Assembly: GCF_012273515.2 (NCBI RefSeq)
Contig: NZ_CP050975.2
Location: 2,046,001 to 2,110,000 of the forward strand
Length of the DNA: 64,000 nucleotides
Direction of reading: 5' to 3'
Origin: Streptomyces sp. RPA4-2
GTDB lineage: Bacteria > Actinomycetota > Actinomycetes > Streptomycetales > Streptomycetaceae
Below, piece after piece: positions 9,259 through 59,385 of this stretch (position 1 is its first letter; each line of letters opens with the position of its first letter). Position numbers and translations under genes: made by a program. The notes beneath the pieces were generated by a model. That model was not told where the DNA came from. It saw only the letters and a program-made list of their open reading frames with translations, and searched no databases.

Positions 9259-9820
9259 AGAGGCCGCCGAGCAGGCACAGTCGGACCTGCGGCTGGATCA
9301 GGGTGATCGGCGGGGACACGGATCCCCGCACGAGCGGCGCGAGTTGACGGCACGTCATGCGCGAGGCCGGGGAAGCGGTCACGCCCATCGCGCGGCCCCG
9401 GTGAGGGCGATGCCACCGGCGCCTCCCACCCCCTCCCCGGTCTCCGGGTGACGGCGGCCCTCGGACCGCGACGCACGTACGTCCCGCCAGCCCGGCGGGG
9501 GCGCCGTCCAGCAGCGTACGGCCGGCCTCCCCGAACGCCTCCCACGGCGTCAGGCGTGCGACCTGGCCCCGGAGTTCGCCCTCGAGGACCCCCGCGCCGG
9601 CACCGTACACACGGTCCGTACCGTCGCTCGCGACCCGCACGGCGCGAGCGCGGCTTCCTCCGGGCAGTGCGTGGTGAGCGGGTGAACGGACCCCCGTCAC
9701 CGGCGAGGCGGGCGCTCCCGCCCCCCGTCGCCGGTGCGCGTCCCGGGCCCGGGACAGGGGCGTGAGCACTTCGGCGCGACGCGGACACGGCCGCGACACG
9801 CGAGCGAAACAGGGTCTCCC

Positions 9821-9844
9821 TAATTTCTGTCACCCGACAGAATT
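9821..9844. promoter_or_regulatory. Palindromic operator before the permease, same as the one before the carboxylase operon
   Basis: TAATTTCTGTC, 4 bp, then GACAGAATT. It is identical at 20 of 24 positions to 18201-18224, which lies next to the TetR gene. It is 24 bp upstream of the permease start, where a repressor would block transcription. Confidence 0.8.
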
Positions 9845-9867
9845 CCGCGCCGAAGGCAGGTGCCACC

Positions 9868-11424
9868 GTGACCACCACCGCCCCCTCCGACGTACGCCCC
9901 GATCCGCCCCGGTCCCCCGACGACGGCTCGCTCACCCCGTTCGGCTACCGCCAGGAACTGCGGCGCAGCCTCGGCCGATACGCCTCGTTCGCCGCCGGTT
10001 TCTCATTCATCTCGGTGCTGACGACCGTCTTCCAATTCTTCGCCTTCGGGTACGCGTTCGGCGGCCCGGTCTTCTTCTGGACCTGGCCGGCCGTCCTGGT
10101 GGGCCAGCTGACGGTCGCCGCCTGCTTCGCCGAACTGGCCGCGCGCTACCCGCTCTCGGGCGCGATCTACCAGTGGTCCTCGCGCCTTTCGAACCTCTCC
10201 TTCGGCTGGTTCGCCGGCTGGATCATGGTGATCGGGCAGATCGTGGTGGTCGCGGCGGCCGCCCTCGCTCTGCAGATGGTGCTGCCCGCGATCTGGTCGG
10301 GCTTCCAGCTGGTGGGCGACGATCCGGCGCCCACCAGCCCCGACGGCGCGGCGAACGCGGCGGTCCTCGGTGTCGTCCTGCTCGTCCTGACCACGCTGGT
10401 GAACGTCGTCGACAACCGGGTGATGTCGGTGATCAACCGCGTCGGCGTCACCGCCGAGATCATCGGCGCCGTCCTGATCATCGTCCTGCTGTTCACCCAC
10501 TCCGAGCGCTCCCCCGGCATCACCTTCCACACCGGTGGGGGCGGATCGGGCCTGTTCGGGGCGCTGATGGTGGGCTCCTTCACGGCGGCCTACGTGATGA
10601 TCGGCTTCGACAGCGCGGGCGAGATGAGCGAGGAGACGCACAACCCACGGCGCACCGCGCCCCGCACGATCCTCACCGCGCTCGGCGCGGCGGGTCTGCT
10701 CGGCGGACTGATCGTGCTGGGCGGCCTGCTGGCCGCGCCCAGCCTCACCGACGGGCACCTGGGCGTGGACGGCCTGAGCTACGTGCTGACCAGCAGCCTC
10801 GGGGACGGGGTGGGCCGGGCGCTGCTCGCCGACGTGGTGGTGGCCGTCGCGGTGGCGACGCTGGCGATCCAGACGGCCGCCTGCCGCATGCTCTTCTCGA
10901 TGGCCCGGGACGGCCGGCTCCCCTTCTCCCGCCGGCTCGCGAGGGTCAACCCGCGCACCGGCATGCCGAGCGTGCCCGCGCTCACCGTCGGTGTCCTCGC
11001 CGCCGCCCTGCTGCTGCTCGACTTCGCCTCCCCGGAGGCCTTTCTGGCGATCGGTACCACCTGCATCGTGATGCTGTACCTGGCGTACGCGATGGTGACC
11101 GGACCGATGCTGGTGCGCCGGCTGCGCGGCGAGTTCACCGCCGGCGGGACCGACGAGACGGGCGCCCCGCTCTTCTCGCTGGGCCGCTGGGGCGTCCCGG
11201 TCAACGCGATCGCCCTCGTCTACGGTCTGCTCATGAGCGTCGACCTCGCCTGGCCGCGCGCCGCGGTGTACGACCCGGCGGGCGGACACTGGTACTTCCA
11301 GTGGTTCACCGTGCTGTTCCTGGGGTCGACGCTGCTCGCGGGTGCGGCCTACCGGGCGTACCGGGCCCGGACGACGGTGGCGGAGGCCGAGGCTCTGGAG
11401 GCGGCCCCGGCCTCGTACACCTGA
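9868..11424 (+). CDS. APC-superfamily amino acid/amine permease
   Basis: 518 residues with about twelve hydrophobic segments from residue 40 onward. Family marks include FAELAARYPLSGAIYQW in the second to third helix region and the conserved SAGEMSEETHNPRRTAPR loop after helix six. GTG start at 9868 with AAGGCAGG upstream. The transported compound is not readable from sequence. The operator shared with the carboxylase/DUF1989 operon suggests a nitrogen-rich substrate, such as guanidine, urea or a related amine, feeding that pathway. Permeases of this family often sit beside urea-carboxylase genes; here the gene is 6.8 kb from the nearest carboxylase-cluster gene. Confidence 0.88.
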   Translation: MTTTAPSDVRPDPPRSPDDGSLTPFGYRQELRRSLGRYASFAAGFSFISVLTTVFQFFAFGYAFGGPVFFWTWPAVLVGQLTVAACFAELAARYPLSGAIYQWSSRLSNLSFGWFAGWIMVIGQIVVVAAAALALQMVLPAIWSGFQLVGDDPAPTSPDGAANAAVLGVVLLVLTTLVNVVDNRVMSVINRVGVTAEIIGAVLIIVLLFTHSERSPGITFHTGGGGSGLFGALMVGSFTAAYVMIGFDSAGEMSEETHNPRRTAPRTILTALGAAGLLGGLIVLGGLLAAPSLTDGHLGVDGLSYVLTSSLGDGVGRALLADVVVAVAVATLAIQTAACRMLFSMARDGRLPFSRRLARVNPRTGMPSVPALTVGVLAAALLLLDFASPEAFLAIGTTCIVMLYLAYAMVTGPMLVRRLRGEFTAGGTDETGAPLFSLGRWGVPVNAIALVYGLLMSVDLAWPRAAVYDPAGGHWYFQWFTVLFLGSTLLAGAAYRAYRARTTVAEAEALEAAPASYT

Positions 11425-11496
11425 GCCCGGAGCAACCGACCCGGCAGCCGCCTCTCACATCCGGGCGGGGAGCACCCTGCCCCGCTCCGCCGCCCG

Positions 11497-11502
11497 TAGG
11501 CT
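11497..11502 (+). promoter_or_regulatory. Putative -10 box of a leaderless transcript
   Basis: TAGGCT ends 8 bp before the GTG at 11510, the spacing expected when transcription starts at the first base of the start codon. No ribosome-binding site is visible before this GTG, which supports leaderless initiation. Confidence 0.55.
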
Positions 11503-11509
11503 TGAGCGG

Positions 11510-12451
11510 GTGAGACGCAAGCCCAGGATCCCGCCCTCCCCCCTGCCGCAGCGCGACGGCGTCGACCCCGTGCGCGTCAGACTGCCGCAGGCCGGGGGGT
11601 GGGCCACGGTACGGGAGCATCTGGTGGAGCGGCTCGCGGCGGGGACCGGGGTGATCGACACGATGCTCGCGGACGGGCTGATCGTGCGCGCGGACGGGCG
11701 GCCGGTGGATCCCGCCACGGCGTACGAGCCGGGGATGTTCGTGTGGTTCCACCGGGAGCTGCCCGACGAGGAGCGGGTGCCGTTCGCCGTCGACGTCGTG
11801 TACCGCGACGCCCATGTCGTGGTGGCCGACAAACCCCACTTCCTGGCCACCACACCGCGTGGCAGCCATGTCGCGGAGACCGTGCTGGCGCGGCTGCGGC
11901 GGGAGCTGGACATCCCGGCGCTGGGCGCCGCACACCGCCTCGACCGGCTCACCGCCGGGCTCGTGCTGTTCACCGTGCGGCCCGAGGAGCGCGGCGCCTA
12001 CCAGTCGTTGTTCCGGGACCGTCTCGTCGCCAAGGAGTACGAGGCGGTGGCCCCGTACGACGCGGGGCTCGCGCTGCCGCGCACGGTCCGCAGCCGGATC
12101 GTGAAGGAGCGGGGGGTGATGGCCGCGCAGGAGGTGGCGGGTGAACCGAACGCCGTGAGCCGGGTCGAACTCCGCGACCACCGTGACGGGTTGGGACGCT
12201 ACCGGCTGATGCCGAGCACCGGGCAGACCCATCAGCTACGGGTGCACATGAACGCGCTGGGCGTCCCCATCCTCGGCGACCCGCTCTACCCGGTGGTGAC
12301 CGGCCCCGTGCCGGCCGGCGACTTCCGGCGTCCACTCCAACTGCTCGCGCGGAAACTGGAGTTCACCGATCCGGTCACGGGGCGGGCACACCGGTTCGTC
12401 AGCGGGCGGGAGCTCCAGGCCTGGTCCGCGCACGACGACTGGGCGCGGTAG
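11510..12451 (+). CDS. RluA-family RNA pseudouridine synthase
   Basis: 313 residues. The catalytic motif HRLDRLTAG is present with the active aspartate at about residue 145, followed by the family's KEYEAV strand and the C-terminal STGQTHQLRVHMNALGVPILGD. An N-terminal S4-like region (about 25-75, with REHLVERLAAGTGVIDTML) may help bind RNA. It should convert uridines in rRNA or tRNA to pseudouridine; the site is unknown. The GTG at 11510 is preferred over upstream in-frame codons because the protein similarity begins there and a leaderless promoter fits. It is convergent with the P450 gene, with only 26 bp between the stops. Confidence 0.9.
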   Translation: MRRKPRIPPSPLPQRDGVDPVRVRLPQAGGWATVREHLVERLAAGTGVIDTMLADGLIVRADGRPVDPATAYEPGMFVWFHRELPDEERVPFAVDVVYRDAHVVVADKPHFLATTPRGSHVAETVLARLRRELDIPALGAAHRLDRLTAGLVLFTVRPEERGAYQSLFRDRLVAKEYEAVAPYDAGLALPRTVRSRIVKERGVMAAQEVAGEPNAVSRVELRDHRDGLGRYRLMPSTGQTHQLRVHMNALGVPILGDPLYPVVTGPVPAGDFRRPLQLLARKLEFTDPVTGRAHRFVSGRELQAWSAHDDWAR

Positions 12452-12477
12452 CCGGGAGCCCCGGCACGCCTGGCCGT

Positions 12478-13986
12478 TCAGTATCCGCGCCACCAGGCCA
12501 GGAAGCGCTGCCAGGCCCCGGCCGGGCGGACGGGCGCGGGTACGGGGGCCTGTGCCGGCGCTGGTGGCGTCACCATCGGCGCGGGCGTCGACATCGGCAG
12601 GGACGGCTCGCGCCGCGGCGCGGACGCCGCCGACTGGTCGGTGCCGATCTGCCAGGGCTGCCGCTGCGGTGGGACCGGCCAAGCGGGCGGCACGTCCTCG
12701 ACCTCCTCCGGCGGCTGCGGCTCGAAGTAGACAGGGAGCTCCACCAGGTGCCGCGACGACATCGACGAGCGCCAGCGCAACTCGTCCTCGTCGCCCTCGA
12801 GTTCGACGTCGGGCAGTCGCATCAGCAGCGCCTCGACACCGACGTCGGCGATGGCACGGCCGATGTCCTGCCCCGGACACTCGTGGGGTCCGCCGCCGAA
12901 GGCCAGGTGGGACCGGTTGCCCATCATGTCGGCCTTGAGATCGGGCCGCACCCGGGGGTCGATGTTGCCCGGCGCGATGCCGAGGATCAGACCGTCGCCC
13001 CGGCGGATGGTCCGGCCGCCCAACTCCGTGTCCTGCTTGGCGAAGTAGCCGAGGACCGCGCTGAACGGCGGCTCGTCCCACAGCGACTGCTCTACCGCCT
13101 CGGGGACCGTCATCTGTCCGCCGTTCAGCCGGGCGCGGAAACGCGGGTCGATGAGCACCACGCGCAACACGTTGGCGAGCAGGTTGGCCGTGGCCTCGTA
13201 GGCGGCCAGCAGCACCAGGCGCAGATGCTGGGCGACCTCGTCGTCGGTGAGTCCGGCCGGGTGGTTGATGAGATGGCCGGTGAAGTCGTCGCCCGGCTGG
13301 TCACGGCGGCGGGCGGTGTGCCGGATCAGGATGTTCATGACGTACTCGTTGCTGGCGATCGCGGTCTCGGTGCCCTTGAGCAGGTCGCGGGTGGCCTGCA
13401 CCAGTCGGTCGTCGTACTCGTCGGGCATACCGAGGATCTGGCACAGCACGGCCATCGGGAGGTGCTCGGCGAACTGACTGACGAGATCCGCCCGGCCCTT
13501 CTCGCAGAAGCGGTTGACCAGGATCTGGGTCGCCCGGTTGATGTGCCGGCGGATGGTGCGGTGGTTGATGGTCGACATGGCGCCCATGACCGCGCCGCGC
13601 AGCCGCAGGTGCTCGTCGCCCTCGGCGTGGGAGCAGATGGGCTGCCAGGCGATGTGCGGCGCGAGCGGGTGTTCGGGCCCGGCCGTGCCGTCCTTGACGG
13701 CGGTCCACAGCCGGCTGTCCCGGGAGAAGTGGGTGGGCGTGCTCACCATGTGCAGGTTCTCCGCGTGGCCGAGCACCACCCAGATCGGCACGTCGTGGTG
13801 GAGCAGCACGGGGGCGACCGCACCGTGCTCGTCGCGGAGTTCCTCGTACAGGGCTCCCAGGTCCTCCGCCTCGGGGCCGTGGAGCCGGTGGAGCCCGCCG
13901 GGACCTCGGCCGTGGGCGGGGCAACCCGGCGGCGGGTCGAGGGCGAGGTCGTCCGTACCGGCCGGTGAGTGGGGTTCAGGCGTCAC
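12478..13986 (-). CDS. cvnE9: Conservon cytochrome P450 (CvnE/RarE type)
   Basis: 502 residues. Heme-binding FGGGPHECPG is present with the axial cysteine at about residue 370. The I-helix region is unusual: RLVLLAAYEATANLL replaces the common AGxxT pattern, as in other conservon P450s. A long proline/alanine-rich tail (about 410-502) ends FLAWWRGY and may tether the protein. It is the last gene after cvnA-D, 82 bp downstream of cvnD. From memory, S. coelicolor cvn9 (rarABCDE), which restrains aerial mycelium formation, has this layout. The number 9 is assigned by neighbourhood, not by alignment. Confidence 0.88.
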   Translation of the reverse strand: MTPEPHSPAGTDDLALDPPPGCPAHGRGPGGLHRLHGPEAEDLGALYEELRDEHGAVAPVLLHHDVPIWVVLGHAENLHMVSTPTHFSRDSRLWTAVKDGTAGPEHPLAPHIAWQPICSHAEGDEHLRLRGAVMGAMSTINHRTIRRHINRATQILVNRFCEKGRADLVSQFAEHLPMAVLCQILGMPDEYDDRLVQATRDLLKGTETAIASNEYVMNILIRHTARRRDQPGDDFTGHLINHPAGLTDDEVAQHLRLVLLAAYEATANLLANVLRVVLIDPRFRARLNGGQMTVPEAVEQSLWDEPPFSAVLGYFAKQDTELGGRTIRRGDGLILGIAPGNIDPRVRPDLKADMMGNRSHLAFGGGPHECPGQDIGRAIADVGVEALLMRLPDVELEGDEDELRWRSSMSSRHLVELPVYFEPQPPEEVEDVPPAWPVPPQRQPWQIGTDQSAASAPRREPSLPMSTPAPMVTPPAPAQAPVPAPVRPAGAWQRFLAWWRGY

Positions 13987-14068
13987 GATGATCGCTCCGA
14001 AACTGAAGTGGGTCCGGTGTCTTGGGGGGTGGGAGTGGGGGTGTGGGTCTCGCGGCCACCGGCGGGCG

Positions 14069-14689
14069 TCAGGCCCGCGAGGAGGACATCGCCAGCGAGT
14101 GCAGGAAGCGCATCAGCGTCATCAGGACGTCACGGCTGGAGGCCCGGCGGCGCGCGTCGCACTTCACGATCGGGATCTCCTCCGCGAGGTCGAGCGCGGT
14201 GCGCAGGTCCTCGATCGGATAGCTGGGCGCGTCCGGGAAGTCGTTCAGGGCGACGACGAACGGCACGCCGCGTTCCTCCAGGCGGCCGATCACGTCGAAG
14301 CTGACTTCCAGACGGCGGGTGTCGATCAGCACGACCGCGCCGAGCGCGCCCTCGAAGAGGCCGTTCCACAGGAACCAGAAGCGTTCCTGGCCGGGGGTGC
14401 CGAAGAGGTACAGCACCAGTTGTTCGGTGATGCTGATCCGGCCGAAGTCCATGGCCACGGTGGTGGCCGTCTTGGTCTCGGAGCCGTAGTTGTCGTCGAT
14501 GCCGATGCCGGCCTGCGTCATGGTCTCCTCGGTGGTCAGCGGCTTGATCTCGCTGACGGCACCCACCATGGTCGTCTTGCCGACCCCGAAACCGCCCACG
14601 ATCACGATCTTCACCGCGGCGGTCGCCGTGTGCGGCAGGTGGTCCTCGGCGCGCGGGCCGGTGATCGTGTCAGAGCTTTTGAAGTCCAT
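14069..14689 (-). CDS. cvnD9: Conservon small GTPase-like protein (CvnD)
   Basis: 206 residues of the Ras-like, MglA-related family found in conservons. P-loop GGFGVGKTTMV is near residue 33, switch-region FGTPGQERFWFLWNGL is near 95, and ALNDFPDAP is in the position of the NKxD base-recognition motif. It probably binds and hydrolyses GTP and cycles between membrane and cytoplasm with CvnA-C. It overlaps the end of cvnC by 20 bp, so the two are translationally coupled. Confidence 0.92.
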   Translation of the reverse strand: MDFKSSDTITGPRAEDHLPHTATAAVKIVIVGGFGVGKTTMVGAVSEIKPLTTEETMTQAGIGIDDNYGSETKTATTVAMDFGRISITEQLVLYLFGTPGQERFWFLWNGLFEGALGAVVLIDTRRLEVSFDVIGRLEERGVPFVVALNDFPDAPSYPIEDLRTALDLAEEIPIVKCDARRRASSRDVLMTLMRFLHSLAMSSSRA

Positions 14690-15125
14690 GCATCACCGCT
14701 TCGAGGAGGGAACGGTCGGGGAGCGCCGAGCGGACGATCGGGGCGCGCGCCTGTACCAGTTCGGCCGTCAGCAGCTCGGTGAGCAGGACGGTCACCACGC
14801 TGAACGGCAGATTGAGATAGGCCGAGAGCTCGGCCACGGACAGAGGGGCCTTGCACAGCCGCAACAGCACCGACTGCTCGGGCTGCGTGGTGGGCGCCGG
14901 AGGGTCGGCACGCGCCACGATCAGGGTGACCAGGTCGAGGTCGGCCCGGTCGCCGCCCTCGCCCCCGCCGGTGAGCACATACAGGCGCCCAGGGATCTTG
15001 GGGTCCTGTTCCTGGCCCTCCTGGGGGGTCCCCTCCGGGGAGGCTCCCTCGTGCGGCGGGCCTCCCTGGGGGACTTCCCGGGGCTCCGCGGTGGGGTGGC
15101 GCCGGCGGCGTTGCGGAGGAGTCAT
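14670..15125 (-). CDS. cvnC9: Conservon DUF742 protein (CvnC)
   Basis: 151 residues. The first 45 are charged and proline-rich; the rest is the DUF742 winged-helix-like domain (RLYVLTGGG, then CKAPLSVAELSAYLNLP and VVTVLLTELLTAELVQAR). I chose the ATG at 15125 because it overlaps the cvnB stop by 4 bp (ATGA), as is usual in conservons; the much longer in-frame extension lies over cvnB and cvnA and is not real. CvnC is thought to bridge the sensor-like CvnA and the GTPase CvnD. Confidence 0.9.
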   Translation of the reverse strand: MTPPQRRRRHPTAEPREVPQGGPPHEGASPEGTPQEGQEQDPKIPGRLYVLTGGGEGGDRADLDLVTLIVARADPPAPTTQPEQSVLLRLCKAPLSVAELSAYLNLPFSVVTVLLTELLTAELVQARAPIVRSALPDRSLLEAVMHGLQKL

Positions 15126-15529
15126 ACGGTCTGCCCGTTGCGGCGCGGCGGGCTGGTGAGGTGCGCGCCGATCCGTGCGACGAGGTCGCGCATGCGGTTG
15201 CTCATCAGGCCGGGCTCCGCGGTCTGGTTGGCGAGGACCGCGAGATAGGCGTTGGCCCCGGCGGACATGAGGTAGAAGTAGCCGCCGTTGATCTCGATGA
15301 TGACCATCCGCATCGTGCCGTCGCTGCGGGGGATCTCGCCCGCGACGGCTCCGGCCAGGCTCTGGAGTCCCGCGCAGGCGGCGGCGACGCGGTCGGCGGC
15401 GTCGGGGTCGCCGCCGTAGCGGGCGATGCGCAGCCCGTCGGCGGAGAGCACCACGATCTGCTGGATGCCCGGGACGCCGTCGGCGAGGTCTTTGAGCATC
15501 CAGTCGAAGTTGCCTCGCTGCTGGATCAC
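15122..15529 (-). CDS. cvnB9: Conservon roadblock/LC7-domain protein (CvnB)
   Basis: 135 residues, a single roadblock/LC7 (MglB-like) domain with the opening FDWMLKDLADGVPGIQQIVVLSADGL and the middle VAAACAGLQSLAGAVAGE. MglB-type proteins act as GTPase-activating partners of MglA-type GTPases, here probably CvnD. It is coupled by 4-bp stop/start overlaps to cvnA (15526-15529) and to cvnC (15122-15125). Confidence 0.93.
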   Translation of the reverse strand: MIQQRGNFDWMLKDLADGVPGIQQIVVLSADGLRIARYGGDPDAADRVAAACAGLQSLAGAVAGEIPRSDGTMRMVIIEINGGYFYLMSAGANAYLAVLANQTAEPGLMSNRMRDLVARIGAHLTSPPRRNGQTV

Positions 15530-17112
15530 TTGAGGTCCCCCTCGTCGTCGGCCTCGGCAGGGGCCGGCTGATGGCTACGGGTGAATGCGGTCGGGTCCGG
15601 GTCGCCCTTGAGGCCTTCCATGAACGCCTCGACCCACAGCCCCGGCGGGGGCTCCTCCTCCTTGGTGGCGGGCGTGGCCTCCCAGGGCGCCGCGGCGGCC
15701 GCGGCCTCGGCGGCCACCTCGGCGGCCCGGGCTTCCGCGATCCGCTGACTGAGCGGGACCTTGACCCTGCTGCGCCGCTGCGGCAGACCGTTGGCCGTCC
15801 ACTCGGTGACCAGCGGCGCGTCGTCGTCCTGGGAGCCGTCGTGCGGCGACGGGACACGGGGTCCGGTGGTCGGACGGCGCTTCTTCGGCTTGCGCTTGGG
15901 GCCCTCGACTCCGTCGGTGTCCATCGTCGGCACCGCGTTCACGCCGATGCCGTGCGCGAGACCGGGGGCGGGGTCCTTGGTGAGCATGTTGCTCGGCACG
16001 ACGATGACGGCGCGGACGCCGCCGTAAGCGGACTGGCGGAGCGAGATCTTCATGTCGTACATCTTCGAGAGCCGCCCGACGACGGCCATGCCGAGCCGGG
16101 GGGCCTCGCCGAGGATGTTGAGGTCGACGCCAGCCGCGGCCTGCCGGAGCAGTTCCTCGATCTTTCCGCGGGCCTCGTCGCTGAAGCTGACGCCGGAGTC
16201 CTCGATCTCGATGGCGACACCGGTCTGCACGACGAGGGCGGTGAGGTGCACCTTGGTGGTCGGCGGCGAGTAGCGCGTCGCGTTGTCGAGCAGTTCGGCG
16301 ACGGCGTGGATGACCGGTTCGACGTGGATGCCGTTGACGTTGACGTCGGCGATCGAGTGCAGCTCGATGCGGCGGTACTCCAGGATCCGGGACATGGCGC
16401 CGCGCATCACGCTGAACAGCGGGACGGGCTCGGGCCAGTTGCGCCCCGGACGGCCGCCGCCGAGCACGGCGATGGAGTCGGCGAGGCGGCCGATCAGCGC
16501 GGTGCCGTGGTCGATGCGCAGCAGGTCGTCGAAGACCTCGGGGTTGCGCCCGTGGTCCTCCTCCATCTCGCGGAGTTCCTTGTTCTGCTGGTGGACGATC
16601 GCCTGGACGCGCCGGGCGATGTTGACGAAGGAGCGCTGGGAGGAGTCGCGCAGCAGGTCCTCGTCGTCCACGACCTTGAGTACGGTGCCGAGCAGATCCC
16701 GCTGCACGGCGGTGAGTTCGCACGGGTCGCTCGCGCCTTGGCCGAAGGTACGGGCCACGTTCTCGGGGTTGACGCCGCCCCGCATGCGGCGGAGCCCGAT
16801 CGGCAGGACCTCTGTGCGCAGGCGCACGAACTCCTGGTCGTGGGCGGCGATGCGCTGTTCGAAGTACGTGGTGCTGCGGGCGAGTTCGGCGCGCAGGTCA
16901 CGGGCGTGGCGGCCGCGGCGTACGGCTTCCGCCGCGACGGTGACGACCAGCAGCGTCGCGATGGCGCCGCACCAGCCGACGGCGGTCCTGGCCGGGCTCG
17001 TCACCACGGCGACGGCGGCCCCGGTCACCGCGGCCATCAGTATGGCCGGCAGCAACAGGACGCGCGCGTAGGGAAGTTCACGGCCACCGGGAGGCGATTG
17101 AACACTCACCAT
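15526..17112 (-). CDS. cvnA9: Conservon sensor-kinase-like membrane protein (CvnA)
   Basis: About 528 residues from the ATG at 17112, chosen because AGAGGG lies 5-6 nt upstream; an ATG at 17172 and a TTG at 17178 are in frame but lack a ribosome-binding site. Two hydrophobic segments at about 18-65 anchor it. A GHKL ATPase domain follows, with N-box LLDNATRYSPP, G-box IEIEDSGVSFSD and LGMAVVGRLS. No clear phospho-acceptor histidine box is evident, as is common for CvnA proteins. The C-terminus is alanine/proline-rich. It heads the cvnA-B-C-D-E operon and is expected to sense an unknown signal. Confidence 0.9.
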   Translation of the reverse strand: MVSVQSPPGGRELPYARVLLLPAILMAAVTGAAVAVVTSPARTAVGWCGAIATLLVVTVAAEAVRRGRHARDLRAELARSTTYFEQRIAAHDQEFVRLRTEVLPIGLRRMRGGVNPENVARTFGQGASDPCELTAVQRDLLGTVLKVVDDEDLLRDSSQRSFVNIARRVQAIVHQQNKELREMEEDHGRNPEVFDDLLRIDHGTALIGRLADSIAVLGGGRPGRNWPEPVPLFSVMRGAMSRILEYRRIELHSIADVNVNGIHVEPVIHAVAELLDNATRYSPPTTKVHLTALVVQTGVAIEIEDSGVSFSDEARGKIEELLRQAAAGVDLNILGEAPRLGMAVVGRLSKMYDMKISLRQSAYGGVRAVIVVPSNMLTKDPAPGLAHGIGVNAVPTMDTDGVEGPKRKPKKRRPTTGPRVPSPHDGSQDDDAPLVTEWTANGLPQRRSRVKVPLSQRIAEARAAEVAAEAAAAAAPWEATPATKEEEPPPGLWVEAFMEGLKGDPDPTAFTRSHQPAPAEADDEGDLK

Positions 17113-17406
17113 GTATGCCCTCTGAGACAGATCGGCGGGGGGTCGGGGGGGGAGTTCGTGGGGAAACTGCATGGTCAAACAGAATCTTCGGAACTTTTGG
17201 GAACAAGCGCACGATTACATCTCAACTCGGTGCGCTGCGGGCGAGCTTAGTCCGACCGGATCATCGCCGTGTCATATTCGGCAAGCGCCTGAAATCGCCC
17301 AGGGGACAGGAGTACCCTCGGCCCATTTATACGCTCAGGCTTCACTCGCACACCCTCAGTAACGGCGTACGAGTAGCCGAAATCCCCTGCTCCACCGGGC
17401 GGTATG
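17113..17406. other. Spacer between conservon and TetR gene
   Basis: 294 bp with lower GC than its neighbours in the centre (about 17175-17370). It contains the conservon promoter on the reverse strand and the end of the TetR unit. A 63-codon forward frame at 17171-17362 has no recognisable features. No strong stem-loop was seen. Confidence 0.5.
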
Positions 17407-18033
17407 TCAGATTCCGGCGATCCGCAGCGCCGCGTCGGCGGTGGCCTCGGCGAACGCGGACACGGGCCGGTCCGGGTCGGAGCGGTGCACGAGAATCACC
17501 CCTTCGATGAGGCCGAACAACAGATCCGTCCGCAGGTCGAGTTCACTCTTGGCGAGAGCGCCGCCCGCGGCCGTCGCTGCCAGCAACTGCCGGTAGGTGC
17601 CCTTGAGTTCGGCCCGTACGGCGTGGAAGCCCGCGAAGCGCTCGGCGCGCACCTCGGGCAGCAGGTACAGCCCGCCGAGGTTGTGCGGGCCGCCGCAGAG
17701 CAGTTCCACGTCGGTCCGGCACAGCTCCCACAACCGGCCCTCGGGCGCGGCCGCGTCGTCCGCCAGGAGCCGGCGGGCGAAGGCCAGCGAGGGCGTGACC
17801 GTGGACTCCAGGAGCTCGGCGAGCAGCTCCTCCTTGCCGGAGACGTAGTGGTACATGGACGCCTGGCGCATGCCCGCCCGCTCGGCGACGGCCCGGGTGG
17901 TCGTCGCCGCGTACCCGCGTGTCGTGAACAACTCGGCCGCCGCGTCGAGCAGTTCGTCGCGCGGCGACAGGCCGCTGTCCGGCCGCTGCGTCGCGCGCGG
18001 CCGGCCCACCCGTCGTCCGCCCCCGGCTCCCAT
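17407..18033 (-). CDS. TetR-family repressor of the carboxylase regulon
   Basis: 208 residues. The N-terminal TetR helix-turn-helix (about 26-72) reads LLDAAAELFTTRGYAATTTRAVAERAG then SMYHYVSGKEELLAELL, typical of the family. The C-terminal ligand domain has no clear assignment. The gene is divergent from the DUF1989/carboxylase operon, and the 214-bp spacer holds a 9-bp perfect inverted repeat (18203-18224). A near-identical copy precedes the permease at 9868. I infer that this protein binds both sites and is released by a pathway intermediate or by the imported substrate. Confidence 0.88.
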   Translation of the reverse strand: MGAGGGRRVGRPRATQRPDSGLSPRDELLDAAAELFTTRGYAATTTRAVAERAGMRQASMYHYVSGKEELLAELLESTVTPSLAFARRLLADDAAAPEGRLWELCRTDVELLCGGPHNLGGLYLLPEVRAERFAGFHAVRAELKGTYRQLLAATAAGGALAKSELDLRTDLLFGLIEGVILVHRSDPDRPVSAFAEATADAALRIAGI

Positions 18034-18200
18034 GCGTTCGATCCTCGCACATGACGCCGGTGGCCGATCGCACCCCGGAGGAGTCTCGAAGCCGCGTGAC
18101 CAGCCGTGTCACCACCGGCCTTCGCCGCACCGCGGGCACGGGTGAGGGATCGGTAACCGGACGGCAACGCGCGAGACACGGCGTCGAACCCCGGCGCTCC

Positions 18201-18224
18201 TAATTTCTGTCGGGCGACAGAAAT
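18201..18224. promoter_or_regulatory. TetR operator before the carboxylase operon
   Basis: ATTTCTGTC and GACAGAAAT form a perfect 9-bp inverted repeat around GGGC. It lies 24 bp before the first DUF1989 start codon, in the spacer shared with the divergent TetR gene. The site before the permease (9821-9844) matches at 20 of 24 positions. Confidence 0.85.
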
Positions 18225-18247: not shown

Positions 18248-19072
18248 ATGGCGACAGCGACCACGCACGGAGCACGCGATCACGCCCGCGCCCAGGAGGG
18301 CACCCGCGCCGAGGCCATGCCCGTCGTTCCGGCGAGCTCCTGGCCCGCGCCCCCCTGCGAGGCGGGCCACCTGGTGTGGGCGGAGACGGTGGCGGGCGGC
18401 AACTACACGCACCGGGTGCTGGCCCGCGGCACGGAACTCAGGCTGACCGACCTGAGCGGCGACGCCTGCGCCCACCTCCTCCTGTACGCCGCCGACCGTC
18501 CCTGGGAGCGCCTGAACGTGGCGGACACGGTCAAGGTCCAGTGGAACGCGTACCTGGGCGAGGGGCAGTTGCTCCTCTCCGACCAGGGCCGCGTGCTCGC
18601 CTCGCTCACCGCCGACACCTCCGGGCGCCACGACGCCCTGTGCGGCACCTCCACGCTCGTACGCAACACACAGCGCTACGGGGACGGCGTGCCGCAGTCC
18701 GCCTCCCCCGCGGGACGCGAGCTGTTCAAGCTGGCCGCCGCCAAGAACGGCCTCGGACCACGTGATCTGCCGCCCTCGCTCTCCTTCTTCCAGGGCGTGG
18801 CGATAGGCGACGACGGCTCCCTGGACTTCACCGGTTCGGCGGGTCCTGGCGGCAGTGTGACGTTGCGCGCCGAGCAGGACGTCACCGTGCTGATCGTGAA
18901 CGTGCCGCACCCGGTCGACCCGCGCCCCGCCTACACCAGCACCGCCCTCGAGGTGCTCGCCTGGCGGTCGGCGGCGACGAAGCCGGGCGACCCGTTGTGG
19001 GAGGCGACGCCCGAGGGCCGCCGTGCCTTCCAGAACACCGTCGAGTTCCTGGCCGCGAGGGGGCTCGCATGA
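18248..19072 (+). CDS. DUF1989 urea carboxylase-associated protein 1 (carboxyguanidine deiminase subunit-like)
   Basis: 274 residues of the DUF1989 family. Typical segments are LRLTDLSGDACAHLLLYAAD, ERLNVADTVKVQWNAYLGEG, SDTSGRHDALCGTS-like text (ADTSGRHDALCGTS) and HPVDPRPAYTSTALEVLAW. Such pairs are annotated as urea-amidolyase-associated proteins. Published work on guanidine breakdown identified them as CgdA/CgdB, which convert carboxyguanidine to allophanate. The conserved cysteine and histidines are kept (HDALCG). RBS GGAGCCGGAGGA is upstream. Its stop overlaps the next gene's ATG by 4 bp. The assignment to guanidine rather than urea metabolism is inference. Confidence 0.85.
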   Translation: MATATTHGARDHARAQEGTRAEAMPVVPASSWPAPPCEAGHLVWAETVAGGNYTHRVLARGTELRLTDLSGDACAHLLLYAADRPWERLNVADTVKVQWNAYLGEGQLLLSDQGRVLASLTADTSGRHDALCGTSTLVRNTQRYGDGVPQSASPAGRELFKLAAAKNGLGPRDLPPSLSFFQGVAIGDDGSLDFTGSAGPGGSVTLRAEQDVTVLIVNVPHPVDPRPAYTSTALEVLAWRSAATKPGDPLWEATPEGRRAFQNTVEFLAARGLA

Positions 19073-19686
19073 CCACGGGCACGAGCGCCGCCACGACGGT
19101 GGTTCCCGCACGCGCCGCCTGGTCGTCGGTCATCCGCGCGGGCGGCACACTCACCATCACCGACCTGCACGGCAACCAGGCCGTCGACTTCCTCGCGTAC
19201 GACGCCCACGACCCGTCCGTCCGCTACAGCGCGCCCGACACGATCCAGGCGCAGGGCAACATCTTCCTGACGGCCGGCAGCGTGCTGATGTCCAACGAGC
19301 ACACCCCCCTGATGACCGTGGTGTCCGACGACGTCGGCCGGCACGACACGGTCGGCGGCGCCTGCTCCAAGGAGTCGAACACGCTGCGGTACGGCCACCA
19401 CACCTGGTCGCAGCACGCCTGCGTGGACAACTTCCTCGCGCGCGGCGCCCGGCACGGCCTCGGCAAGCGCGACCTCGTCTCGAACATCAACTGGTACATG
19501 AACGTGCCGGTCGAGAAGGACGGCACCCTCGGCATCGTCGACGGCCTCTCGGCCCCGGGCCTCGCCCTGACCCTGCGCGCCGCACGCGATGTCCTCGTCC
19601 TGGTCTCCAACTGCCCCCAGATCAACAACCCCTGCAACGGCTTCGAACCGACCGCCGTGCGGATGAGCGTAGGGACGGCGGAATGA
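19069..19686 (+). CDS. DUF1989 urea carboxylase-associated protein 2 (carboxyguanidine deiminase subunit-like)
   Basis: 205 residues, a second, shorter DUF1989 protein: TLTITDLHGNQAVDFLAYDA, RYSAPDTIQAQGNIFLTAGS, VGRHDTVGGACSKESNT and NVPVEKDGTLGI. Pairs of a long and a short member form the two-subunit carboxyguanidine deiminase. The start is the ATG at 19069, overlapping the upstream stop (ATGA); its own stop overlaps the carboxylase start in the same way. The three genes are thus tightly coupled. The motif GRHDxxxGxxC, shared with the upstream gene, carries the probable metal or catalytic residues. Confidence 0.86.
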   Translation: MTTGTSAATTVVPARAAWSSVIRAGGTLTITDLHGNQAVDFLAYDAHDPSVRYSAPDTIQAQGNIFLTAGSVLMSNEHTPLMTVVSDDVGRHDTVGGACSKESNTLRYGHHTWSQHACVDNFLARGARHGLGKRDLVSNINWYMNVPVEKDGTLGIVDGLSAPGLALTLRAARDVLVLVSNCPQINNPCNGFEPTAVRMSVGTAE

Positions 19687-22600
19687 GCTTCGACACGCTG
19701 CTGGTCGCCAACCGGGGCGAGATCGCGGTCCGGATCATCCGCACCGCGCGCGAACTCGGCCTCCGCACGGTCGCGGTGTACTCCGACCCCGACCGCTCGG
19801 CACCGCACGTCCGGCTCGCCGACGAGGCCGTCCGGCTGGGCCCGGCCCCCGCGAAGGACTCGTACCTCGACGCCGACCTGGTCCTGAAGGCGGCCAAGGA
19901 CACCGGCGCCGGGGCGATCCACCCCGGCTACGGCTTCCTGTCCGAGGACGCGGCCTTCGCGCGGCGCTGCGAGGACGCCGGGATCGTCTTCGTGGGACCG
20001 ACGCCCCGGCAGCTGGAGCTGTTCGGGGCGAAGCACACCGCGCGGGCGGCGGCCCGGTCGGCCGGTGTGCCGCTGGCCCCGGGCACGGGGCTGCTGCCCG
20101 GCCTCCCGGATGCCCTGGAGGCGGCCGAGGACATCGGCTACCCCGTGATGCTCAAGGCCACCGGCGGCGGGGGCGGCATCGGTATGGCGGCCTGCGGCTC
20201 CGCGGGTGAACTGGCCGAGGCCTGGGAGCGCGTACAGCGCGTCGCCGCCGCGTCCTTCGCCTCCGCCGGGGTCTTCCTGGAGCGCCTGGTGGAGCACGCC
20301 CGCCATGTCGAGGTGCAGGTCTTCGGCGACGGCCGGGGCCGCGTCGTCACCTTCGGCGACCGCGACTGCTCGCTCCAGCGCCGCAACCAGAAGGTCGTGG
20401 AGGAGGCCCCGGCCCCCGGGCTCCCGCCTCACGTGCGGGCCCGACTCGCCTCCTGCGCACGTGACCTGTGCGCGAGTGTCGGATACCGCTCGGCCGGCAC
20501 GGTCGAGTTCGTGTACGACGCCGCGCACGAGGAGGCGTACTTCCTGGAGGTCAACACCCGTCTCCAGGTGGAGCATCCGGTCACCGAGGAGATCTACGGG
20601 GTCGACCTCGTCGCCTGGATGCTGCGGCTCGCGCGCGGTGAGTCGGAGGTCGTGCGGGACCCGGGGGCGCCGCGCGGTCACGCCGTGGAGGCCCGGCTGT
20701 ACGCCGAGGACCCCTCGCGCGAGCACCGGCCGAGCGCGGGGCTGCTGACCCGGGTCGAGTTCCCCGGCGGCGTCCGGGTGGACGGCTGGGTGGAGACGGG
20801 CACCGAGGTGACCACCGCGTACGACCCCATGCTCGCGAAGATCGTCGCGTACGGCCCGGACCGCGCGCACGCCCTGGAGCGGCTGGACGAGGCGCTGGCC
20901 AGGACTCGGGTCGACGGCGTCGAGACGAACCTGGGGCTGGTGCGGGCCGCGCTCGCCGACCCGTCCTTCCGGCGGGCCGCGCACTCGACGGCGACGCTGG
21001 CCGGGGTCACCGATCCCACGGCCCGCGTCGAGGTGGTCTCCGGCGGCACGCTCACCACGGTCCAGGACTGGCCGGGCCGCACCGGCTACTGGCAGGTGGG
21101 CGTGCCGCCGTGCGGACCGATGGACGACCTGTCCTTCCGGCTGGGCAACCGCGCCCTCGGCAACGACGAGGGGGCACCCGGTCTGGAGTGCACCCTGCGG
21201 GGGCCGGCCCTGCGCTTCACGCACGCCGTCACGGTCTGCGTCACCGGCGCCCCGGCGCCGGTGACCGTGGACGGCACGGCAATCGCCCAGTGGGAGCCGG
21301 TGACGGTGCCCGCGGGAGCGGTGCTGGACGTCGGCGCACCCGGCGGACACGGCCTGCGCACCTACGTCCTCTTCGCCGGCGGAGGCCTGGACGTCCCGGC
21401 GTTCCTCGGCAGCGCCGCCACCTTCACCCTGGGCCGGTTCGGCGGGCACGGCGGCCGGGCGCTGCGGACCGGGGACGTGCTGCACGGCGGATCGGTCACC
21501 TCCGTGTCGGCGCCCGTACCGCCCGCCGACCGACCCGTGCTCACGTCCGGGTGGCGGGTCGGCGCGCTCGAAGGCCCGCACGCCGCACCGGAGTTCTTCA
21601 CCGAGGACGACATCCACGACTTCTACGCGGCCGACTGGAAGGTCCACTTCAACTCGGCGCGCACCGGCGTACGACTGGTCGGTCCCAAGCCCCGCTGGGC
21701 GCGTACGGACGGCGGCGAGGCGGGCCTGCACCCCTCCAACATCCACGACACGCCGTACTCCGTCGGTGCCGTCGACTACACCGGTGACATGCCGGTGCTG
21801 CTCGGCCCGGACGGCCCCTCGCTCGGCGGCTTCGTCTGCCCCGCGACGGTCGTCAGCACGGAGCGCTGGAAACTCGGCCAGCTCCGCCCCGGCGACACCG
21901 TGCGCTTCACGCCGCTCGCCGACGACGGCTCGGCGCGGGCCGCCGTCGTGGACGGCGGGGTACTGGCCCGGGACGGCGACGTGACGTTCCGCCGCAGCGG
22001 CGACGACAACCTGCTGGTCGAGTTCGGGCCCATGCAGCTGGACCTGGCGCTGCGCATGCGGGTCCACGCGCTGATGGAGGCGGTGGCCGCGGCGGACCTC
22101 GACGGCGTCACGGACCTGACCCCCGGCATCCGCTCCCTGCAGATCCAGGCGGATCCGCGCAGACTCCCGCAGCGCGCACTGCTCGCCGCCGTGCGGGAGA
22201 CGGTCCGCGCGCTCCCTCCCACCGACCGGCTCGTGGTCCCCTCCCGTACCGTGCACCTCCCGCTGTCCTGGGACGACCCGGCGACCCGCGAGGCCATCGA
22301 CCGGTACATGGCGGGGGTCCGCGACGACGCACCCTGGTGCCCGTGGAACATCGAGTTCATCCGCCGGGTGAACGGCCTGGACTCGGTGGACGACGTGTAC
22401 CGCACCGTCTTCGACGCCGAGTACCTCGTACTGGGCCTGGGCGACGTGTACCTGGGCGCGCCGGTCGCGACTCCGCTGGACCCGCGGCACCGTCTGGTCA
22501 CCACCAAGTACAACCCGGCCCGCACCTGGACCGCAGAGAACTCCGTCGGCATCGGCGGCGCCTATCTCTGCGTCTACGGCATGGAGGGTCCCGGCGGCTA

Positions 22601-23198
22601 CCAGTTCGTGGGCCGGACCACCCAGGTGTGGTCGGGGTGGCAGCAACGCGGTGCCTTCGAGCCGGGCTCGCCCTGGCTGCTGCGCTTCTTCGACCGCATC
22701 AAGTGGTACGCCGTGGAGCCCGACGAACTCCTCGGTCTGCGCGCCGACATCGTCTCGGGGCGGTTCGTGCCACGGATCGAGGAGGGCGAGTTCTCGCTGG
22801 CGCGCTACGAGGACTTCCTCGCCGACCACGCCGAGTCGATCGCGCGGTTCCGGGCCCGGCAGGGCGCCGCGTTCGGCGCGGAGCGGGATGCCTGGGAGGC
22901 GGCGGGCGAGTTTGCCCGCGCGGACGCCGCAACCGCGCCCGCGCCCGCGGCAGCAGAGGTGACCGTCCCGGCGGGCGGCCGGCTCGTCGAGGCCGAGTTC
23001 GCCGCGTCCGTGTGGCAGGTGAACGTCGAGCCGGGCGACCATGTCACCGCCGGCCAGCCCCTGCTGGCGCTGGAGGCGATGAAGATGGAGTCCCGGGTGG
23101 CCGCCCCGGCGGACGGAGTCGTGCGGCAGGTCCTCACCAGGCCCGGCGCCCAGGTGGAAGCGGGCACGGCACTCGTGGTCCTGGCACCCGCCACCTGA
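19683..23198 (+). CDS. uca: Biotin-dependent urea/guanidine carboxylase
   Basis: 1171 residues in the order biotin carboxylase (1-450; LVANRGEIAVRIIRTARELG, ATP-grasp loop KATGGGGGIGM, EVNTRLQVEHPVTEEIYGVD), KipA/AHS2 region (about 455-760; GGTLTTVQDWPGRTGYWQVG), KipI/AHS1 region (about 770-1000; DDNLLVEFGP), a segment YNPARTWTAENSVGIGG, and a C-terminal biotinyl domain with EAMKMES, biotin lysine at about 1134. It carboxylates urea to allophanate or guanidine to carboxyguanidine using ATP and bicarbonate. The presence of two DUF1989 genes favours guanidine; the residues that discriminate the two need alignment to characterised enzymes. The ATG at 19683 overlaps the previous stop. Confidence 0.92.
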   Translation: MSFDTLLVANRGEIAVRIIRTARELGLRTVAVYSDPDRSAPHVRLADEAVRLGPAPAKDSYLDADLVLKAAKDTGAGAIHPGYGFLSEDAAFARRCEDAGIVFVGPTPRQLELFGAKHTARAAARSAGVPLAPGTGLLPGLPDALEAAEDIGYPVMLKATGGGGGIGMAACGSAGELAEAWERVQRVAAASFASAGVFLERLVEHARHVEVQVFGDGRGRVVTFGDRDCSLQRRNQKVVEEAPAPGLPPHVRARLASCARDLCASVGYRSAGTVEFVYDAAHEEAYFLEVNTRLQVEHPVTEEIYGVDLVAWMLRLARGESEVVRDPGAPRGHAVEARLYAEDPSREHRPSAGLLTRVEFPGGVRVDGWVETGTEVTTAYDPMLAKIVAYGPDRAHALERLDEALARTRVDGVETNLGLVRAALADPSFRRAAHSTATLAGVTDPTARVEVVSGGTLTTVQDWPGRTGYWQVGVPPCGPMDDLSFRLGNRALGNDEGAPGLECTLRGPALRFTHAVTVCVTGAPAPVTVDGTAIAQWEPVTVPAGAVLDVGAPGGHGLRTYVLFAGGGLDVPAFLGSAATFTLGRFGGHGGRALRTGDVLHGGSVTSVSAPVPPADRPVLTSGWRVGALEGPHAAPEFFTEDDIHDFYAADWKVHFNSARTGVRLVGPKPRWARTDGGEAGLHPSNIHDTPYSVGAVDYTGDMPVLLGPDGPSLGGFVCPATVVSTERWKLGQLRPGDTVRFTPLADDGSARAAVVDGGVLARDGDVTFRRSGDDNLLVEFGPMQLDLALRMRVHALMEAVAAADLDGVTDLTPGIRSLQIQADPRRLPQRALLAAVRETVRALPPTDRLVVPSRTVHLPLSWDDPATREAIDRYMAGVRDDAPWCPWNIEFIRRVNGLDSVDDVYRTVFDAEYLVLGLGDVYLGAPVATPLDPRHRLVTTKYNPARTWTAENSVGIGGAYLCVYGMEGPGGYQFVGRTTQVWSGWQQRGAFEPGSPWLLRFFDRIKWYAVEPDELLGLRADIVSGRFVPRIEEGEFSLARYEDFLADHAESIARFRARQGAAFGAERDAWEAAGEFARADAATAPAPAAAEVTVPAGGRLVEAEFAASVWQVNVEPGDHVTAGQPLLALEAMKMESRVAAPADGVVRQVLTRPGAQVEAGTALVVLAPAT

Positions 23199-23362: not shown

Positions 23363-25019
23363 ATGACCGCCCTCGCCCGAGTGCAGTCGGCCTACGCCCG
23401 CGTCGAGGCGGTCGACCGCCCCGAGATCTGGATCGACCTGCGCCCTCGGGCAGCGGTCGAGAAGGAGGCCGAGGCTCTCGACGCCCGCGTCGCCGCGGGC
23501 GAACACCTCCCCCTCGCCGGCCGGCTCCTCGCCGCGAAGGGCAACATCGACGTGGCGGGCCTGCCGACCACCGCGGGCTGCCCGGCGTACGCGTACACCC
23601 CGAAGGAGGACGCCCCCGCGGTCGCCCGCCTGCGAGCGGCCGGCGCGCTCGTCCTGGGCACCACGAACCTGGACCAGTTCGCGACCGGCCTGGTCGGTAC
23701 CCGTTCCCCGTACGGCGCGGTGCGCGGGGCCCTCGACCCGGCCCGCGTCAGTGGTGGCTCCAGCTCCGGATCGGCCGTGGCGGTGGCTCTGGGCCTGGTC
23801 GACCTCGCCCTCGGCACCGACACGGCCGGTTCCGGCCGTGTTCCCGCCGCCTTCAACGGCATCGTGGGCCTGAAGCCGACCCGCGGCCTGGTCCCGACCA
23901 CCGGCGTCGTCCCGGCCTGCGCCTCACTGGACTGCGTGACCGTCTTCGCCCGTACGCTCCCGGAGGCCGAACACGCCCTCGCGCACCTGGCCCGCCCGTC
24001 CGGACGCGCGCTGCTTAAGCCCTCCCCCAGCGCGCCCCCGGTCCCTGGCGCGTCGCCGTCCCCCGACGGCACAGCTCGGCGAGCTGGACGCGGGTTGGGC
24101 GCGGGCGTACGAGGCCGCCGTGGCGCAGCTCGTCGCGGCGGGGGCCGAGGTGCGACCACTCGATCTCACCCCGTTCACCGAGGCGGCGGCGATGCTCTAC
24201 GAGGGCGCGTTCGTCGCCGAGCGCTACACCGCGGTGGGGAGTTTTGTCGACAAGTTGCTCAGCGAGGGGGGCGCGGGTCTCGACCCGACCGTCGCGGGGA
24301 TCATCACTCGCGCCCGGGACATCCCGGCCCACCGTCTCTTCGCCGACCAGGACCGGCTGGCCGACTTGCGTCTGCGGGCCCTCGCCGGGCTCGGCGACGC
24401 GGACGCCCTGCTGCTGCCGACCGCGCCGGGTCACCCCACGCTCGCGGAGGTCGCCGCCGACCCGCTGGGCGCCAACGCCCGCCTGGGGCGTTTCACCAAC
24501 TCAACGAACCTCTTCGACCTCGCCGCGGTCGCCGTTCCGGCGGGCACCGTGGACGGACTGTCCTTCGGCGTCATGCTGATCGGCCGCGCGTTCACCGACG
24601 AGCGCCTGGCCCGGATCGCCGCCCTGCTCCGGCCTCGGACACGGGTCGCCGTGTTCGGCGCCCATCTGTCGGGCCAGCCCCTGAACCCGCAGCTCCTCGC
24701 CCTGGGCGCCGAGTGGGAGCGTACGACGGCGACGGCGGCCTCCTACCGGCTGTACGCCCTGGCCACCACACCTCCCAAGCCGGGTCTGGTCCGCACCGGC
24801 GCGGGCGGGGCCGCCGTCGAGACGGAGGTGTGGCGGCTGCCCGCCGAGGGCCTCGGCCGCCTGCTCGCCGAACTGCCCCGTCCGATGGCGCTCGGCCGGG
24901 TCGAACTGGCCGACGGCACCCACGTGCCCGGCTTCCTGTGCGAGCCCCGCGCGCTCGAGGGCGCGGAGGACATCACGGAGTACGGCGGCTGGCGCGGCTA
25001 CCTGCGGGCGCGCGACTGA
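23363..25019 (+). pseudogene. atzF: Allophanate hydrolase, split by two frameshifts
   Basis: The front part (23363 to about 24015) reads as an amidase-signature enzyme: catalytic lysine in LLAAKGNIDVAGLP, GGSSSGSAVAVALG and nucleophile region DTAGSGRVPAAFNGIVGLKP. Around 24016-24046 the frame changes to one that reads PWRVAVP, and around 24058-24070 it changes again to one reading TAQLGELDAGWARAYEAAVA. The rest is intact, including the AtzF C-terminal domain (VELADGTHVPGFLCEP, DITEYGGWRGYL). Each junction fits one missing base, and both lie in runs of C. The product would hydrolyse allophanate to ammonia and CO2, completing the pathway. RBS AAGGAG precedes the ATG. It is either a real loss or a sequencing error. 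Confidence 0.85.
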
Positions 25020-59184: not shown

Positions 59185-59385
59185 GAAGGTGCTCCCTGGA
59201 GTGCGACGGCTGTCGGCTTTGCGCTTCCCATGGAAGGCGCACGCCGTCAGGGTAGCCCGGAGCACCACCGGAGGGTCGGCGGCGTCCAGAGGACGGACGC
59301 GCGTGGCGGAGGCGACCGGGGTGTTAAGAACAGACGAGACATCTTGCGACCACCTATTAGCGAGAGCTCGTCGACGAACGGTAGT

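Follow-up and report, generated by a model that had tools for sequence, protein, structure and literature searches.

A predicted AmtR regulon with two matching operators and GlnR-like boxes at putative guanidine catabolism genes of Streptomyces sp. RPA4-2

The 64,000-nucleotide stretch of Streptomyces sp. RPA4-2 DNA analyzed here (contig NZ_CP050975.2, positions 2,046,001 to 2,110,000; the whole stretch is called the window) carries two closely similar palindromes, one preceding the gene of an APC-type permease and the other preceding an operon for two DUF1989 proteins, a biotin-dependent carboxylase and an allophanate hydrolase. A TetR-family gene is transcribed divergently from the operon. 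According to an original prediction, the permease gene and the operon constitute a small regulon under the control of this neighboring TetR protein, a proposal that gained support from the sequence comparisons described below. The features of the locus are listed in Table 1.

Table 1. Features of the two regulon halves and of the DNA between them
Feature	Position in window	Strand	Remark
AmtR operator (predicted), permease promoter	9821..9844	+	TAATTTCTGTCACCCGACAGAATT
AmtR operator (predicted), DUF1989 operon promoter	18201..18224	+	TAATTTCTGTCGGGCGACAGAAAT
GlnR-like box array, permease promoter	9773..9810	+	14/18 consensus positions; 5-mers every 11 bp
GlnR-like box array, operon promoter	18153..18190	+	GTAAC-n6-GCAAC-n6-GACAC-n6-GAACC; 15/18, top score in the window
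amtR, TetR-family repressor AmtR (by sequence)	17407..18033	-	divergent from operon
APC-type permease, predicted guanidine/organocation importer	9868..11424	+	best NCBIfam model TIGR03428, "permease, urea carboxylase system"
DUF1989 protein UAAP1, predicted carboxyguanidine deiminase subunit	18248..19072	+	TIGR03425, over cut-off
DUF1989 protein UAAP2, predicted carboxyguanidine deiminase subunit	19069..19686	+	TIGR03424, over cut-off
Biotin-dependent "urea carboxylase"	19683..23198	+	TIGR02712, 1,823 bits; guanidine-type Asp698 and Asp921
Allophanate hydrolase, split gene	23363..25019	+	pieces searched, 23363-24037 and 24120-25019
RluA-type pseudouridine synthase	11498..12451	+	intervening gene, outside regulon
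Conservon (HATPase_c, Roadblock/LC7, DUF742, GTP-binding protein, P450)	12478..17178	-	intervening, outside regulon

The two 24-mers were found to be identical at 20 of 24 positions and to form near-perfect palindromes, as had been claimed for them, and the permease copy read on the opposite strand differs by one mismatch from the 19-mer TTTCTGTCN4GACAGAA. A search of the window with this 19-mer, allowing up to 3 mismatches, yielded 4 strand hits, which are 2 places each detected on both strands, versus a mean of 0.39 hits in 100 shuffled versions of the window. A chance resemblance of two short palindromes could be argued for from the single shuffle (1/100) that reached the same number of hits. 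However, within the whole single-contig genome of 9.86 Mb, the two operators are the only places with 0 to 1 mismatch to the 19-mer, and both lie at functionally linked genes. The genome scan proposed along with the original prediction revealed no further copies at this threshold. The next best sites have 2 mismatches and include a palindrome at G000:C1:5305711 beside a menaquinone-type methyltransferase/radical-SAM region and a site at 5652475 near an adenosine deaminase-like gene, the genes at both places having been read by eye. When up to 3 mismatches were allowed, 35 strand hits were obtained with the true pattern versus 16 with a reversed control, and many of these weak genomic sites must therefore be noise.

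The palindrome is strongly conserved. Using the first DUF1989 protein as query, we retrieved 80 other Streptomyces loci, the best 80 of 383 matching relatives; being the closest of the 383, they are not independent of each other. At 79 of the 80 loci, the 200 bp preceding the DUF1989 gene contain the exact core CTGTCN4GACAG, and at the remaining one (L043) a single base is changed in one operator arm. The same core was found near the permease start at all 42 loci in which this start is preceded by at least 200 bp of sequence. This conservation already refutes chance resemblance, to which we assign next to no probability. AmtR was found at 78/80 loci; the sequence of the two others (L028 and L032) breaks off shortly before the operon. 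We also considered the equal 24-bp spacing, with 23 bases between each site and the permease GTG or the DUF1989 ATG; this spacing had been read correctly, but it was rejected as a functional feature. With start codons extrapolated from tblastn alignments, the distance from core to start ranges in the relatives over 16 to 151 bp (DUF1989 gene) and -10 to 141 bp (permease gene), and the identical spacing in the window is therefore a coincidence.

By its sequence relationships, the TetR protein beside the operon, which the original prediction had left as a TetR regulator, is AmtR. It matched the TetR N-terminal helix-turn-helix family PF00440, and its six leading matches among PDB sequences scored 110 to 128 bits versus at most 48.3 bits for the next TetR proteins. 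These leading matches comprise 5e57 and 5mqq/6gy3, which are named AmtR, and 5dy1/5dy0/5dxz, which are named TetR family; we take the latter three to be AmtR of Corynebacterium glutamicum and 5e57 to be AmtR of Mycobacterium smegmatis. TetR proteins are numerous in Streptomyces, and the operators might in principle belong to another member of the family, with the gene next to them standing there by coincidence. Three lines of evidence argue against this alternative and render it very improbable. First, the window operators contain the CTGTC-n4-GACAG core of the 22-bp AmtR consensus for Streptomyces avermitilis and others, TAtCTGTCa-n2-cGACAGATAT, quoted from Chen et al. 2013 (PMC8864220), and differ from it in the outer bases. 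Second, the orthologous protein of M. smegmatis binds the orthologous upstream region, since purified M. smegmatis AmtR bound the region upstream of the permease gene (PMC4222082). Third, palindrome and AmtR are present or absent together in 17 of 18 operon-bearing genomes from outside Streptomyces.

For the third line, 296 genomes sampled across the class were searched for the DUF1989 protein UAAP1; 31 matched at an E value of ≤1e-40, 26 of them over the cut-off. These 26 genomes and G216, which is below it, make up our 27 operon genomes; the other four below the cut-off (G038, G050, G340, and G421) were dropped. AmtR (E ≤ 1e-20) was detected in 21/27 operon genomes versus 1/19 same-genus genomes listed without a UAAP1 match, and all nine same-genus genomes with the operon, including the one studied here, possess it. 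The palindrome outside Streptomyces was defined as CT[AG]TCN4GA[CT]AG located between 250 bp upstream and 30 bp downstream of an extrapolated start. It was found at the permease or the UAAP1 gene in 11 of the 12 genomes that carry AmtR and at neither start in any of the six that lack it, although a palindrome of this form occurs within the permease gene of G216, one of these six. As side observations, the loci L159, L162, and L171 contain variant operators of the form ATACCTGTCN4GACAGGTAT (one base off in L171), with AmtR located toward the 3' end of the operon, and in L160 and L167 (genomes G294 and G373) the genes for UAAP1, UAAP2, and allophanate hydrolase form clusters in which neither a carboxylase nor AmtR was found.

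An AmtR regulon of this kind is already recognized in S. avermitilis and M. smegmatis, and the split regulon as such adds little. Chen et al. 2013 (Microbiology 159:2571) reportedly found sav_6697-6700 and sav_6709 to be direct targets of AmtRsav; that work reportedly analyzed this regulon, which is therefore known in kind and nearly in place. A 2013 table covering ten actinobacteria groups the permease with urea carboxylase, amidase, and AmtR, the S. avermitilis entries being sav6709, sav6698, sav6697, and sav6701, respectively (PMC4222082). The S. avermitilis regulon shares with that of the window the gene set, the split numbering (sav6709 versus sav6697-6701), and the palindrome core, and a figure legend shows its amtR, like that of the window, transcribed opposite to the operon. 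It differs in belonging to another genome and in that the allophanate hydrolase is frame-broken in the assembly studied here, whereas the GlnR-like boxes and the guanidine assignment come from the present analysis. In M. smegmatis (msmeg_2184-2189, with amtR as msmeg_4300), AmtR represses the permease and carboxylase genes, as deletion of amtR raised the target transcripts, whereas the nitrogen response was kept without AmtR and lost without GlnR (PMC4222082). There, unlike in the window, amtR is located elsewhere and the permease gene adjoins the operon; an antisense RNA of amtR has also been reported. The homologous repressor of C. glutamicum, with the consensus CTAT-N6-ATAG (PMC8864220), has the half-site CTAT with 6-bp spacing versus CTGT with 6-bp spacing here, and is a global nitrogen regulator of more than 30 genes for which release by GlnK is reported, in contrast to the two genome sites with ≤1 mismatch found in our strain.

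The present analysis adds two observations, GlnR-like boxes that lie equally far from the operator in the two promoters and guanidine-type aspartates in the carboxylase. For the former, the published GlnR consensus gTnAc-n6-GaAAc-n6-GtnAC-n6-GAAAc (PMC10704036) was scanned over both strands of the window, and at least 14 of 18 matches occurred only at 18153 (15), 18142 (14), and 9773 (14). The site at 18142 is the operon-promoter array shifted by one step, and the best a-b pair of the permease array is GACAC-n6-GAAAC. The arrays at 18153 and 9773 both begin at -54 from their own operator core. When the relatives were aligned on the operator, conserved 5-mers with an 11-bp period appeared upstream of it in both promoters; the -54 register was the best offset in 67/77 operon promoters, and a half-box at -32 was the best in 40/42 permease promoters. 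Just outside the palindrome, on its upstream side, a TA is conserved (T in 100% of operon and 96% of permease promoters, A in 100% of both). It yields the sequence TAATTT, which overlaps with the operator and is a candidate for the -10 element. The boxes agree with reports from M. smegmatis that the corresponding genes depend on GlnR and that AmtR and GlnR compete, and GlnR may well activate these two promoters.

The products of the regulon carry names from urea metabolism, and the same AmtR regulon could serve urea, via the urea carboxylase-allophanate hydrolase (urea amidolyase) route. The family models do say so, TIGR02712 being named urea carboxylase and TIGR03428 urea carboxylase system permease, and the papers on M. 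smegmatis AmtR annotate the urea route. The residues of the carboxylase point elsewhere. The criterion published in Nature in 2024 for guanidine carboxylases is an Asp at position 1584 of the Kluyveromyces lactis enzyme plus an Asp at position 1330, which sets them apart from urea carboxylases (PMC11410670). In an alignment to K. lactis structure 3va7, with residue numbering derived by hand from the aligned chain ranges, Asp698 of the window enzyme faces Asn1330 of the fungal urea enzyme, and Asp921 matches position 1584. Every readable Streptomyces relative has Asp at both positions (78/78 at position 1330 and 77/77 at position 1584, with 2/80 and 3/80 not covered, respectively), and so do, at position 1330, all 12 AmtR-bearing operon genomes outside Streptomyces. 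Among the six operon genomes that lack AmtR, position 1330 is Met in four and not covered in two.

In a phylum-wide carboxylase sample, 187 of 198 genomes match at an E value of ≤1e-100, but only six are over the cut-off; most of the matches listed cover the biotin carboxylase part only. Five of their loci, all from the same genus and including that of the window, have Asp, and one (L095) has Asn; in the 6.6 kb of this sole Asn-type locus, with about 1.5 kb on each side, no DUF1989 gene was detected. A DUF1989 deiminase pair should be needless for urea breakdown, yet both genes are present at 80/80 Streptomyces loci. We take the models TIGR03425 and TIGR03424, to which the two proteins belong, to correspond to CgdA and CgdB. 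Furthermore, M. smegmatis AmtR stayed bound to DNA in the presence of urea (PMC4222082), and enzymes annotated as urea carboxylase have been reported to prefer guanidine, with about 75% of such genes predicted to encode guanidine enzymes (PMC12186494). A urea regulon is thus improbable in our view, and the genes are most likely to be read as guanidine catabolism genes. Since the carboxylase possesses both guanidine-type aspartates, AmtR most likely guards guanidine uptake and breakdown.

Taking the identity of AmtR, the conserved operators, the GlnR-like boxes, and the guanidine-type residues from the sequence, we consider it highly probable that AmtR, acting through the two operators, and GlnR-type boxes control genes for the import and breakdown of guanidine. 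AmtR would bind both operators and keep the permease gene and the DUF1989-DUF1989-carboxylase-allophanate hydrolase operon from being transcribed. DNA binding and repression by AmtR are experimental findings in relatives and are expected to hold here by analogy; the block would arise because each operator overlaps the conserved TAATTT that resembles a -10 element. Upon nitrogen starvation, GlnR would activate both promoters, while AmtR would hold the genes off until a release signal arrives. Guanidine would then be imported and carboxylated, and the resulting carboxyguanidine would be deiminated to allophanate, which would be hydrolyzed to ammonia.

The main question raised by the regulon is what AmtR senses. 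The cited texts describe AmtR as regulating urea metabolism. If guanidine is what its target genes break down, it is also the obvious candidate ligand, and we tentatively predict, with clearly less confidence than we place in the regulon itself, that guanidine or an intermediate of the pathway releases AmtR. If AmtR is a guanidine sensor, the lack of any effect of urea and amino acids on DNA binding by M. smegmatis AmtR (PMC4222082) would be accounted for. The same result is in line with a mechanism that needs no small ligand, in which AmtR is released by the PII protein GlnK, as proposed for C. glutamicum, and simply doubles the nitrogen-starvation input of GlnR; such a release has been reported for C. 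glutamicum AmtR, for which no small effector is known. However, the AmtR-independent, GlnR-dependent nitrogen response of M. smegmatis and the contrast drawn between this organism and C. glutamicum in PII control of transcription (PMC4617892) make AmtR seem to bring a second signal, and guanidine is not among the effectors listed as tested on AmtR in the part of the M. smegmatis study consulted here (PMC4222082). We regard release by GlnK as the main alternative, with a probability well below one half. A literature search returned no paper joining AmtR with guanidine in this sense; it mostly did not cover subscription papers, so the idea may have been tried.

If guanidine does release AmtR, actinobacteria would possess a guanidine-sensing protein in addition to their riboswitches. 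Operons under guanidine riboswitches contain the same kinds of genes (importer, carboxyguanidine deiminase pair, guanidine carboxylase, and allophanate hydrolase); unlike them, the window operon appears to be controlled by a protein repressor at the DNA. No guanidine riboswitch was found in the window, and searches of the whole genome for the guanidine-I and guanidine-III classes found none of the former. One guanidine-III riboswitch was found elsewhere in the genome (G000:C1:3649931-3649995, minus strand; L093:1501-1565), which ends 30 nt upstream of the start of a SugE-family SMR exporter gene (L093:1150-1470). On a speculative note, AmtR outside Corynebacterium might be a guanidine-responsive repressor that forms an AND gate with GlnR, opening in cells that are both starved and supplied with guanidine, on a composite promoter of fixed geometry, while a riboswitch-controlled SugE-type exporter handles toxic excess; this general scheme is a conjecture that we hold with reserve. 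Guanidine-I matches over the cut-off were absent from all 21 AmtR-bearing operon genomes (G381 has one below it), whereas three of the six operon genomes without AmtR have a guanidine-I riboswitch at the operon. AmtR and guanidine-I as mutually exclusive controls were considered, but the pattern was not relied on: the riboswitch operons are not clean orthologues, because their divergent carboxyltransferase has Met and no fused biotin carboxylase domain was aligned. The G216 match, moreover, lies exactly at the cut-off in one search and was not returned in another. The three loci in question (L154, L155, and L156, from G210, G216, and G269) are guanidine-I-linked DUF1989 operons without AmtR, with Met in the carboxyltransferase.

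Several observations weigh against AmtR control of guanidine genes in this strain. The reading frame of the allophanate hydrolase is broken in a C-rich stretch near 24000-24060, and the pathway may therefore not run to completion here. In the relatives, the gene was in one frame without stops at 74/74 loci (of 80) where both halves were found, and the break could reflect a mistake in the assembly or a recent lesion (pseudogene) in the strain. The permease scored 648 bits against the TIGR03428 cut-off of 740, even though the match is near full length. The aspartate rule is not clean: the guanidine-I-linked G210, G216, and G269, plus G351, align Met at the first aspartate. For the three guanidine-I-linked enzymes, either the rule has exceptions or their substrate is a different one. 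No sigma-70 promoter emerged when the permease promoter region alone (9700-9900) was scanned with a consensus, and the -10 assignment therefore rests on conservation. An NCBIfam search of the TetR protein matched no AmtR model, all 18 hits being far below their cut-offs; whether that collection contains such a model was not established. Among the comparison genomes, G462 carries AmtR with no CT[AG]TCN4GA[CT]AG at its permease or UAAP1 start, and G324, of the same genus, has AmtR but no operon. Finally, the guanidine-III riboswitch lends weak support, because it is as common without the operon as with it (17/19 versus 7/9 same-genus genomes).

The pseudouridine synthase gene and conservon that separate the two halves of the regulon, described as core genes in the original prediction, are real. 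An RluA-type gene and a conservon lie between the permease gene and AmtR at 60 of the 61 loci that carry both, and the split layout is therefore common to close relatives rather than peculiar to this strain. The one locus without the intervening genes is L070, where the permease gene directly adjoins AmtR, as it also does in G271 and G322, which belong to another family. In G324 (locus L228), an orphan amtR lies between the same helicase gene, recognized by eye, and the RluA gene; tblastn found the RluA gene at this locus and no permease, operon, or conservon gene. Elsewhere in the window, positions 59182-59301 on the minus strand match the Streptomyces-metH small RNA family (RF03076) with 102 bits.

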